64,000 nt of DNA from Streptomyces ferrugineus (GTDB lineage Bacteria > Actinomycetota > Actinomycetes > Streptomycetales > Streptomycetaceae): assembly GCF_015160855.1 (NCBI RefSeq), contig NZ_CP063373.1:7973001-8037000 (forward strand), given 5' to 3'. The translations under genes and the position numbers were made by a program. Shown piece by piece: positions 18,803 through 49,173 of this stretch (positions within the stretch are counted from its first letter, which is position 1; each line of letters opens with the position of its first letter). The notes beneath the pieces were generated by a model. That model saw only the letters and a program-made list of their open reading frames with translations, did not search any database and had not been told where the DNA came from.

Positions 18803-20407
18803 CTACTCCGCCGGCGTCACCCCGGCCCGCAGCAGTCCGTAGGCGTACGCGTCCTCCAGGGCCTGCCACGACGCGGCGATGACGTTGTCGGCCACGCCCA
18901 CCGTGGACCACTCCCCCGTGCCGTCGGACGTGGAGATCAGGACGCGGGTGGTGGACTGGGTGCCGTGGACGCCCTCCAGGATGCGGACCTTGTAGTCGAC
19001 CAGGTCGAGCTTGGCGAGCTGGGGGTAGATCTTCTCCAGGGCCACGCGCAGGGCGCGGTCGAGGGCGTTGACCGGGCCGTTGCCCTCGGCCGTGGCGACG
19101 ATGCGCTCGCCCTTGGCGAAGAGCTTGACCGTGGCCTCGTTGGCGTGGGTGCCGTCGGGGCGGTCCTCGACGATCGCGCGCCAGGACTCGACCTCGAAGT
19201 ACTTCAGGGGCTTGCCCTCGACCTCGGCGCGCAGGAGGAGTTCGAAGCTCGCGTCGGCCGCCTCGTAGGTGTAGCCCTCGAGCTCGCGCTCCTTCACTCG
19301 CTCGACGACGCGGCCGACCAGCTCGCGGTCGCCGCCGAGGTCGATGCCGAGTTCCTTGCCCTTGAGCTCGATGGAGGCGCGGCCGGCCATGTCGGAGACC
19401 AGCATCCGCATGGTGTTGCCGACCAGCTCGGGGTCGATGTGCTGGTACAGGTCCGGGTCGACCTTGATCGCGGAGGCGTGCAGGCCGGCCTTGTGGGCGA
19501 AGGCGGAGACGCCGACGTAGGGCTGGTGGGTGGAGGGGGTGAGGTTGACGACCTCGCCGATGGCGTGGGAGATCCTCGTCATCTCACGGAGGCGGCCCTC
19601 GGGGAGGACCTTCTTGGCGTACTTCAGCTCCAGGGCGGCCACGACGGGGAAGAGGTTGGCGTTGCCCACGCGCTCGCCGTAGCCGTTGGCCGTGCACTGG
19701 ACGTGGGTCGCGCCCGCGTCGACCGCGGCGAGGGTGTTGGCGACCGCGCAGCCCGTGTCGTCCTGGGCATGGATGCCGAGGCGGGCGCCGGTGTCGGCCA
19801 GGACCGTCGACACGACCGCCTGCACCTGGGCCGGGAGCATGCCGCCGTTGGTGTCGCAGAGGATGACCACGTCCGCGCCGGCCTCCGACGCGGTGCGGAC
19901 GACCGATTTCGCGTACTCGGGGTTGGCGCGGTAGCCGTCGAAGAAGTGCTCGCAGTCGACGAAGACCCGGCGGCCCTGGGAGCGCAGGTACGACACCGTG
20001 TCCTCGATCATGGCCAGGTTCTCGTCGAGAGTGGTGCGCAGGGCGAGTTCGACATGGCGGTCGTGGGACTTGGCGACCAGCGTGACGACGGGCGCTTCGG
20101 AGTCCAGGAGCGCCTTGACCTGCGGGTCCTCCGATGCCTTGGCGCCCGCGCGGCGCGTGGAGCCGAAGGCCACCAGCTGGGCGTTCTTGAAGTCGATCTC
20201 CTGCCGGGCGCGCGCGAAGAACTCGGTGTCCCTCGGGTTGGCCCCGGGCCAGCCGCCCTCGATGAAGCCGACGCCGAACTCGTCCAGGTGCCGTGCGATG
20301 GCGAGCTTGTCCGCGACGGTGAGGTTGATGCCCTCCCGCTGCGCGCCGTCGCGCAGGGTGGTGTCGAAGACGTGGAACGAATCGTCGAGCTCGCTGGTTG
20401 CGGTCAT
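18803..20407 (-). CDS. cimA: Citramalate synthase
   Basis: A 534-residue member of the isopropylmalate/citramalate synthase family. Residues 12 to about 270 are the TIM-barrel catalytic domain (FDTTLRDGAQREG with the divalent-metal Asp; GIHAQDDTGCAVAN with the metal His). The C-terminal part holds the LeuA-type allosteric dimer domain (VEGKPLKYFEVESWRAIVED onward). The enzyme condenses pyruvate and acetyl-CoA to citramalate, giving 2-ketobutyrate and then isoleucine without threonine. It is separate from leuA. Its leader contains a short ORF with two rare Ile codons and an intrinsic terminator, suggesting control by isoleucine supply. Confidence 0.9.
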   Translation of the reverse strand: MTATSELDDSFHVFDTTLRDGAQREGINLTVADKLAIARHLDEFGVGFIEGGWPGANPRDTEFFARARQEIDFKNAQLVAFGSTRRAGAKASEDPQVKALLDSEAPVVTLVAKSHDRHVELALRTTLDENLAMIEDTVSYLRSQGRRVFVDCEHFFDGYRANPEYAKSVVRTASEAGADVVILCDTNGGMLPAQVQAVVSTVLADTGARLGIHAQDDTGCAVANTLAAVDAGATHVQCTANGYGERVGNANLFPVVAALELKYAKKVLPEGRLREMTRISHAIGEVVNLTPSTHQPYVGVSAFAHKAGLHASAIKVDPDLYQHIDPELVGNTMRMLVSDMAGRASIELKGKELGIDLGGDRELVGRVVERVKERELEGYTYEAADASFELLLRAEVEGKPLKYFEVESWRAIVEDRPDGTHANEATVKLFAKGERIVATAEGNGPVNALDRALRVALEKIYPQLAKLDLVDYKVRILEGVHGTQSTTRVLISTSDGTGEWSTVGVADNVIAASWQALEDAYAYGLLRAGVTPAE

Positions 20408-20525
20408 GGTGTCAAGGCTCCTGTGTTGGATCCCAGTGGATACGTCGTTGCCGGAATGACCGGCTCCACAGTCCTCCCATGGTCCCTCGCGCTGCGCTCC
20501 CGGCTGCAGGTGGGCCAGAAATGCG

Positions 20526-20550
20526 AAAAACCCCTCGCGGGTGCGAGAGG
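20526..20550 (-). terminator. Intrinsic terminator (candidate attenuator) in the cimA leader
   Basis: On the minus strand CCTCTCGC (20550-20543), loop ACCC, GCGAGGGG (20538-20531) is followed by five T residues (20530-20526). This is a classical rho-independent terminator about 120 bases before cimA, in the transcribed leader. It resembles the ilvB attenuator hairpin in this window (shared CGAGGGG arm and U-tract). Confidence 0.7.
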
Positions 20551-20605
20551 TCTGCGCGCGGGTCGAGGACGACGGTGTCCGCCCGTACGTGGTCGTACGT
20601 GGCGG

Positions 20606-20641
20606 TCACTGCGGACCGGCGCGCCTGCTGCCAATAATCAT
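20606..20641 (-). CDS. Candidate cimA leader peptide
   Basis: An 11-codon ORF, MIIGSRRAGPQ then TGA, is followed by a hairpin (arms CCGCC/GGCGG and CGTAC/GTACG, about 20605-20579) and then the intrinsic terminator at 20550-20526. The two Ile codons are ATT ATT, rare in this GC-rich genome, so slow decoding when Ile-tRNA is short could stall the ribosome and favour read-through into cimA. CAGACT (20668-20663) could be a -10 element giving a nearly leaderless message. There is no ribosome binding site, so the call is inference. Confidence 0.5.
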   Translation of the reverse strand: MIIGSRRAGPQ

Positions 20642-20722
20642 GGCGAACGAGAGCACGGGGGCAGTCTGGCACACACGGCCCCCGGGCTCACCGTCCGTCT
20701 CAGGATGCGAGCACTGCGTTGA

Positions 20723-49043: not shown

Positions 49044-49077
49044 AAAAAACCCCTCGTGCCATAAGGCAAGCGAGGGG
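49044..49077 (-). terminator. ilvB attenuator
   Basis: On the minus strand CCCCTCG (49077-49071), a two-base bulge, TGCC/GGCA inner arms and CGAGGGG (49056-49050) are followed by six T residues (49049-49044). The terminator lies between the leader peptide and ilvB, as in known ilvB attenuators. Confidence 0.82.
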
Positions 49078-49131
49078 AGCGCGTCGGGTGTGGACGCTGG
49101 GAGTTCCGGATCTGTCCGGACGTCACCAGCT

Positions 49132-49173
49132 TCAGCCGACGCGCTTTCCAAGTACGAGGATTCGGGTGCGCAT
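49132..49173 (-). CDS. ilvB leader peptide
   Basis: A 13-residue ORF, MRTRILVLGKRVG, carrying Ile-Leu-Val-Leu in a row. It is preceded by a strong GGGGGGAGGG ribosome binding site and followed by the ilvB attenuator. Actinobacterial ilvB operons are known to have such leader peptides; stalling at Ile/Leu/Val codons prevents terminator formation. Its start is about 210 bases before ilvB. Confidence 0.85.
   Translation of the reverse strand: MRTRILVLGKRVG

Follow-up and report, generated by a model that had tools for sequence, protein, structure and literature searches.

A probable isoleucine-responsive leader-peptide attenuator upstream of cimA in Streptomyces, and its relatives across Actinomycetota

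Leader peptides encoded before ilvB and leuS are already known. For the ilvB1 leader of M. tuberculosis, changing LVVI to AAAA is described as leaving expression low and uninducible (PMC13236596), and for ilvB of S. coelicolor the replacement of the regulatory codons reportedly left regulation unchanged (Craster et al., 1999, cited in PMC1262725). The ilvL leader and other leaders of S. lividans are reported to be leaderless, in a paper that lists eight leader peptides, cimA not among them (PMC8079986). No report of cimA attenuation was found in searches of open-access articles, and in two of these that name citramalate the mentions are unrelated.

Here we describe the leader of cimA, the citramalate synthase gene, in Streptomyces ferrugineus and compare it with leaders from the genus, the class and the phylum. 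On comparative evidence it is one of a family of branched-chain amino acid leaders that extends across Actinomycetota. Taken as a whole, we consider it likely that this leader is an isoleucine-responsive leader-peptide transcription attenuator, in which a hairpin (P1) is proposed to switch the intrinsic terminator (T) by abutting it.

The cimA leader and its conservation in Streptomyces

The window is the whole stretch of DNA that was analyzed, 64,000 nucleotides of contig NZ_CP063373.1 (positions 7,973,001 to 8,037,000). The original prediction described a short ORF, MIIGSRRAGPQ, using two rare ATT codons, followed by a hairpin and an intrinsic terminator "120 bases" before a citramalate synthase gene, and these elements are all present (Table 1). 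The downstream gene matches TIGR00977 at 651 bits against a cut-off of 450. The ORF as first described reads ATG ATT ATT...TGA from 20641 to 20606 on the minus strand, and ATT is rare, with 12 occurrences among 626 Ile codons in a set of 43 window ORFs selected by composition. T, at 20553-20526, ends 118 nt 5' of the cimA start (20407, minus strand). What had to be revised is the beginning of the ORF: the reading frame and its Ile codons are conserved, but the start is GTG 20656 and not ATG 20641.

The fold of the 146-nt cimA leader was more stable than that of 200 out of 200 shuffled sequences (z -4.35). A generic terminator scan called no terminator at the cimA leader, probably because the stem of T extends into the U-tract. 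At gathering score, no Rfam 15 family (T-box included) matches the window or any of 20 related loci, and on that ground the identity of the leader as a riboswitch or T-box was rejected.

Table 1. Features of the cimA and ilvB leaders, in window coordinates.
Feature	Position	Strand	Evidence or remark
cimA, citramalate synthase, 534 aa, regulated gene	18803..20407	-	TIGR00977 equivalog, 651.1 bits, E 9.8e-196, cut-off 450
TGAGAC box, possible activator site (putative)	20697..20702	-	46 nt 5' of leader start codon
-10-like hexamer CAGACT	20663..20668	-	hexamer carried by 64/101 genus leaders
Leader ORF GTG...TGA, MLSFAMIIGSRRAGPQ, 16 codons, probably leaderless	20606..20656	-	start kept in 101/101
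Sensor codons ATT ATT (Ile7-Ile8)	20633..20638	-	14 and 11 nt 5' of P1
P1 5' strand GCGCGCCGGUC, within leader ORF	20614..20624	-	exact in 100/101 leaders
P2, variable hairpin 3' of stop codon, enclosed by P1	20579..20605	-	both-side pair changes; folds
P1 3' strand GACCCGCGCGC, 0 nt from terminator	20554..20564	-	RNAalifold; covariation in other families
T, intrinsic terminator hairpin and U-tract, AGACCTCTCGC-ACCC-GCGAGGGGTTTTT	20526..20553	-	11-bp stem kept in 28/28
ilvB leader ORF MRTRILVLGKRVG	49132..49173	-	same peptide listed for S. lividans ilvL (PMC8079986)
ilvB leader: sensor codons, P1 (49145-49136 with 49087-49078), abutting terminator	49045..49162	-	R2 match

For comparison within the genus, 101 leaders were assembled: that of the window, 80 from named loci gathered by cimA protein homology (all titled Streptomyces except one "Actinobacteria bacterium"), and 20 drawn from the members of lower identity in a sample of 121 genomes of the genus, all of which have a cimA match. 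Comparison of these leaders, and of those from other families described below, brings out the ORF, its Ile codons, P1 and T, together with their conserved geometry. The leader start, the in-frame GTG 20656 of the window, is GTG in 97 and ATG in 4 of the 101 leaders; ATG 20641 was rejected as a start, as many relatives have ACG or some other codon there. At least two Ile codons are found in 96/101 leaders and a single one in 5/101. The first Ile codon is ATT in 100/101, the exception (L114) having ATC followed by ATT ATT. The leaders thus combine an ORF holding at least one Ile codon (101/101) with a terminator before the gene, the broad features of a leader-peptide attenuator. Conservation of the Ile codons, which had been named beforehand as a check, therefore holds within the genus, and Ile runs recur in many of the compact leaders of other families. 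The -10-like element ends 6-7 nt 5' of the leader start codon in 94/101 leaders, a spacing that suggests that the ORF is probably leaderless, with transcription predicted to start at or near GTG 20656.

The peptide MLSFA[M/T]IIGSRRAGPQ is encoded by 70/101 genus leaders, as might be expected of an arrest peptide, that is, a nascent leader peptide that halts the ribosome and for which the Ile codons are incidental. In four genus leaders, three with Ile-Ile and one with Ile-Met, the frame is shifted soon after the Ile codons, which replaces the C-terminal half of the peptide and leaves the P1 strand GCGCGCCGGUC intact; this argues for a constraint on the RNA and not on the peptide tail. Leaders of other families have mainly the Ile run in common, and in those before ilvB, leuS and leuA Ile is swapped for Val and Leu. 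A conserved nascent C-terminal peptide, the mark of the arrest-peptide class, is thus absent from these frame-shifted and divergent tails, and we find an arrest peptide scarcely credible here.

Outside the ORF, TGAGAC lies 45-47 nt before the start codon in 100/101 genus leaders (chance about 0.8% per leader). It also occurs upstream of the window's ilvB leader ORF and may represent a shared activator site (putative). NdgR was rejected as the reader of this box, since the published NdgR motif differs; neither "SCO5529", which we take to be S. coelicolor cimA, nor "citramalate" occurs in the main text of the NdgR paper. On the other side of the leader, a CCGGCCCA-like block lies immediately 3' of the terminator (window 20490-20525, minus strand) in 81/101 genus leaders, and in a longer window fold the region of the P1 5' strand pairs with sequence 3' of the terminator.

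Related leaders in other families and before other genes

Covariance model R1, built from 28 genus leaders, has one strong match in the source genome, the cimA leader, and matches in 149/150 family genomes and, at E <= 0.1, in 141/296 class genomes (28 in the genus). Downstream of the 40 class R1 matches outside the family lie cimA (33), ilvB (4), an ilvA-like gene (1) and a gene for a protein with a weak ACT-domain match (1), one further match being due to chance.

The leader before the ilvA-like gene (L203) contains Ile and has the same anatomy. Its gene resembles that for threonine ammonia-lyase, isoleucine's other entry, and has threonine ammonia-lyases as best NCBIfam matches, below their cut-offs. 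The leader with the weak ACT-domain match (L211), an Ile leader encoding MFALVIIM, precedes a 107-aa protein (E 0.0014, below the Pfam cut-off), possibly a small regulatory subunit.

The cimA leaders of other families are compact, with an ORF of 8-14 codons in most and in many an Ile run right before the stop codon; P1 is a short hairpin at the stop codon, T follows it directly and P2 is absent. Alignment A2, from which L188 and L214 were omitted, comprises 31 of these leaders and shows both-side changes in 6/10 pairs of P1 and 7/11 pairs of T. The covariation score of P1 and T was reached by 0/500 shuffles, and every covariation measure dropped when the partner strands were slid. P1 and T are adjacent and non-overlapping in the folded leaders. 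Pairing of a P1 strand with the terminator loop, hinted at by the genus sequences, was dismissed because it is not kept elsewhere, as judged by eye. Ile is encoded in the 31 leaders by ATT (41) as well as ATC (32), and the rare ATT is therefore not essential.

A second model, R2, was built from 31 other-family cimA leaders; neither an ilvB leader nor any from this family is in its training set. Searched against the window, it placed the cimA leader first (57.7 bits, E 4.8e-14) and the ilvB leader second (23.9 bits, E 1.5e-4, filters off; next E 0.12), so that the parallel between the two leaders, part of the original prediction, was recovered by a model with no ilvB leader in its training. At E <= 0.01, R2 has matches in 193/296 class genomes. 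Among the cimA-bearing class genomes (E <= 1e-120, n=236), 185 have an R2 match and 51 have none; 27 of these 51 belong to one small-genome family (f25) and are all 27 of its cimA-bearing genomes. This family is a candidate for lineage loss of the leader. The position of the matches relative to cimA was checked among 150 R2 matches listed, for 109 of which the cimA coordinates of the genome were listed as well. All but one of these 109 are followed by cimA in the same orientation, at a distance of 21-227 nt (median 63; 26 of the 108 are from Streptomyces); the exception (G358:C6) comes from a genome whose other match adjoins cimA. A second cimA-like gene, outside the window (G000:C1:8467327-8468886) and 59% identical, has no ATTATTGG-like or terminator-like stretch on either strand of its 4560-base locus.

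From 35 class genomes chosen for more than one R2 match, 40 further matches were fetched, which precede ilvB (24), leuS (12), leuA (2) and cimA (1), with one chance match. The 12 leuS assignments were made by NCBIfam (3) or by eye (8), with one on a contig too short to verify, and one of the two leuA assignments was checked. L215 and L290, which lack the leader anatomy, were treated as chance matches and dropped. In a phylum sample, R2 matches were present in 64/246 genomes, 52 of them outside the class; 20 of these matches, from 18 genomes, precede ilvB (15), leuA (1), leuB (1) and cimA (1), with no gene assigned for two. The regulatory codons match the pathway of the downstream gene, being Ile for cimA, Leu for leuS and leuA, and mixed for ilvB.

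The spacing of the regulatory codons, taken from the first base of the codon to the first base of P1, is narrowly distributed. In the genus, Ile codons stand at both 14 and 11 nt in 92/101 leaders and at 13 or 14 nt in 101/101, five leaders retaining Ile solely at 14 or 13. The window leader, with Ile at 14 and 11 nt and a P1-T spacer of 0, has the geometry that defines the R2 family. Among script-parsed leaders, an Ile, Leu or Val codon lies 10-12 nt before P1 in 30/33 for cimA, 26/28 for ilvB, 10/10 for leuS and 2/2 for leuA. At control offsets in cimA leaders, a regulatory codon was found in 0/22 (5 nt) and 4/22 (20 nt); since the script picked frames by their Ile/Leu/Val content over the 5-20 nt range, these counts are informative in how they differ from one offset to another. 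They omit L180 (ORF unparsed) and L283 and L285 (P1 unparsed), and count as misses L193, L212, L197 and L205, seemingly mis-parsed when inspected by eye, and L208, which has a CTG start. Most leuS leaders place Leu codons 14, 11 and 8 nt upstream of P1, which abuts T, and the ilvA-like leader is an exception, with a single Ile at 8 and not 11. Of the 20 phylum leaders, 16 had a parsed ORF, its frame again chosen by Ile/Leu/Val content, and 15 of these 16 place Ile, Leu or Val at 10-12 nt from P1; the ORF was unparsed in the other four.

A ribosome stalled at the sensor codon is expected, from its footprint, to have its leading edge about where P1 begins. Two positions of the stop codon account for most parsed leaders, one 0-4 nt 5' of P1 and the other about 7-16 nt within it; from either, the terminating ribosome should mask the P1 5' strand. 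The ilvB1 study takes the ribosome footprint as 26 nt, centred on the codon (PMC13236596).

The P1-T spacer is 0 in 100/101 genus leaders, which were gathered by protein homology. The corresponding counts are 26/33 for other cimA leaders, 24/28 for ilvB, 9/10 for leuS and 2/2 for leuA, and of the 20 phylum leaders 17 have no spacer, one has a spacer of 1 nt and two of 4 nt; zero spacing is built into R1 and R2, so spacer counts on their matches are biased, and those on sets gathered by protein homology are not. In an ilvB control set of 30 loci, collected by protein homology from 36 matching genomes, 27/30 carry a strong terminator; with spacers of 0-20 nt permitted, the strongest stem 5' of it was 0-1 nt away in 19/27.

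The same observations bear on whether T could be a constitutive terminator, or promoter-proximal noise, lacking any amino-acid control. The codon substitutions in S. coelicolor ilvB that were reportedly without effect (PMC1262725) would be in line with this, but pathway-matched codons and the codon-P1 distance are conserved on the scale of the phylum, and we consider such an uncontrolled terminator very unlikely. The isoleucine-sensing attenuation that was originally proposed is well supported by these comparisons, and we regard leader-peptide attenuation of cimA, as read from sequence, as very likely.

Possible control of the terminator by P1

From these features we infer the start site, translation, stalling, direction of control and blocking step as follows. 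Transcription would begin close to or at GTG 20656, with the 16-codon leader then translated by a ribosome. When charged Ile-tRNA is ample, the ribosome would reach the stop codon and cover the P1 5' strand, T would fold freely, and most transcription would end near 20526. When Ile is short, the ribosome would stall with an Ile codon in the A site and its leading edge at about the start of P1. P1 could then form straight against T, with no spacer in between, and would keep T from being completed at the exit channel of the polymerase, through steric or coaxial abutment and not through strand exchange, and RNA polymerase would read through into cimA. The reasoning behind the last step is that feedback logic needs stalling to raise expression, and as stalling frees P1, P1 should oppose T; because P1 touches T without sharing bases with it, a steric step, with the P1 helix at the base of T, appears the simplest. 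The result of the AAAA replacement in M. tuberculosis ilvB1 fits a sequence of events in which no stall occurs, P1 is blocked and termination follows. For the abutment mechanism as such, we put the chances at nearly even.

A classical trp-type attenuator would work differently, through an antiterminator pairing with a terminator arm that competes with T. Such a scheme has general precedent, the leuS and trp leaders of Streptomyces have been called classical (Seliverstov, 2005, PMC1262725), and the authors of the M. tuberculosis ilvB1 study propose mutually exclusive structures (PMC13236596). For each terminator arm, we scored the best duplex that it forms with leader sequence upstream against 200 dinucleotide shuffles, in 57 leaders, of which 37 come from other families and 20 belong to the genus set of 101. 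No conserved strand-exchange antiterminator was detected in this set (n=57), the mean z being 0.14 for the 5' arm and -0.12 for the 3' arm, and p <= 0.05 was obtained in 0/57 leaders for the 5' arm and 2/57 for the 3' arm (L180, L186). In these two, a C-rich upstream sequence outpairs the terminator 5' arm for the 3' arm (p 0.03 each), a strong upstream pairing of the kind that a classical attenuator calls for; in several other leaders the upstream pairing with the 3' arm is nearly as strong, at the level predicted from composition. Antiterminator pairing in single leaders such as L180 and L186 is possible.

The same test applied to the 5' arm of E. coli K-12 controls gave z -4.4 for thr (0/400 shuffles), -1.9 for leu (p 0.055) and -1.3 for trp (p 0.09), and thus detects a strong antiterminator clearly and weaker ones marginally. 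Unlike those of E. coli thr, and marginally leu and trp, the arms of the 57 leaders are no more complementary to upstream sequence than are shuffles, and P1 and T adjoin rather than overlap in folded leaders. The conserved antiterminator that characterizes the classical trp-type class was accordingly not seen at n=57, with two of the three E. coli controls marginal, and we judge this explanation unlikely, though a weak antiterminator may have escaped the test. In folding models of the window leader alone, T is stable in every modelled ribosome state, so that a switch, if any, is not visible at folding equilibrium.

Alternatively, P1 could act mainly as a pause hairpin, which holds the polymerase in the T 5' arm until the ribosome arrives, with coupling and not abutment deciding the outcome. 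When cimA leaders are folded, the end of P1 and the T loop are about 11 nt apart, close to the spacing of known pause hairpins. A pause by itself accounts neither for read-through upon stalling nor for the fixed codon-P1 distance, and we view P1 as improbable in this role alone.

Extending the abutment mechanism beyond cimA, we tentatively suggest, at somewhat less than even chances, that cimA, ilvB, leuS, leuA and at least one ilvA-like gene of Actinomycetota share an antiterminator-free attenuator, in which the leading edge of the ribosome, positioned by a codon-P1 distance of 10-14 nt, determines whether P1 can form, and P1 abuts T and so hinders it physically from closing.

Comparison with known attenuators

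With the leader described here, cimA, the threonine-independent entry to isoleucine, can be added to the actinobacterial genes that a leader peptide is likely to control, and several leaders are united as one definable RNA family that has no Rfam 15 match in the window and 20 related loci. If the abutment is true, a terminator can be controlled without strand exchange. If the family-wide reading is true as well, ribosomes would have a second means of governing an intrinsic terminator, one old enough to occur inside and outside the class. Isoleucine supply feeds antibiotic precursors in Streptomyces, and through this link the cimA switch may offer a practical handle.

The thr, leu and trp attenuators of E. 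coli resemble the cimA leader in that a leader ORF with regulatory codons precedes an intrinsic terminator. They differ in the complementarity of the terminator 5' arm, which is strong in thr and marginal in leu and trp, whereas none beyond chance is found in the actinobacterial set. The mycobacterial attenuators with leaderless polycysteine ORFs (cited in PMC13236596) resemble the cimA leader in having a leaderless short ORF with codons for the amino acid of the pathway, but are cited there as cases of translation attenuation; upstream of the mycobacterial cys operons, Seliverstov (2005, PMC1262725) saw no terminator hairpin that is conserved.

Closest to cimA are the actinobacterial ilvB leaders (ilvL, Seliverstov, 2005; ilvB1, PMC13236596), which likewise consist of a short ORF with branched-chain amino acid codons, a GC-rich hairpin and a terminator, and which are found by the same model, R2. 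The ilvBNC operon of C. glutamicum (Morbach, 2000, by its title) is also counted among the ilvB leader attenuators. These leaders precede another gene, and the cimA leader differs from them in having Ile as its only regulatory codons. They are described with mutually exclusive structures, or with the mode left open, whereas P1 of cimA abuts T without overlap; a description of such abutment was not found in the open-access passages covered. The leuS leader of Streptomyces (LeuL2, MRAVRLLLSEPR; PMC8079986, PMC1262725) differs from that of cimA in sensing Leu, in standing before a tRNA synthetase gene and in having been called classical in 2005 (PMC1262725); like the cimA leader, it is found by R2, and its P1 abuts T.
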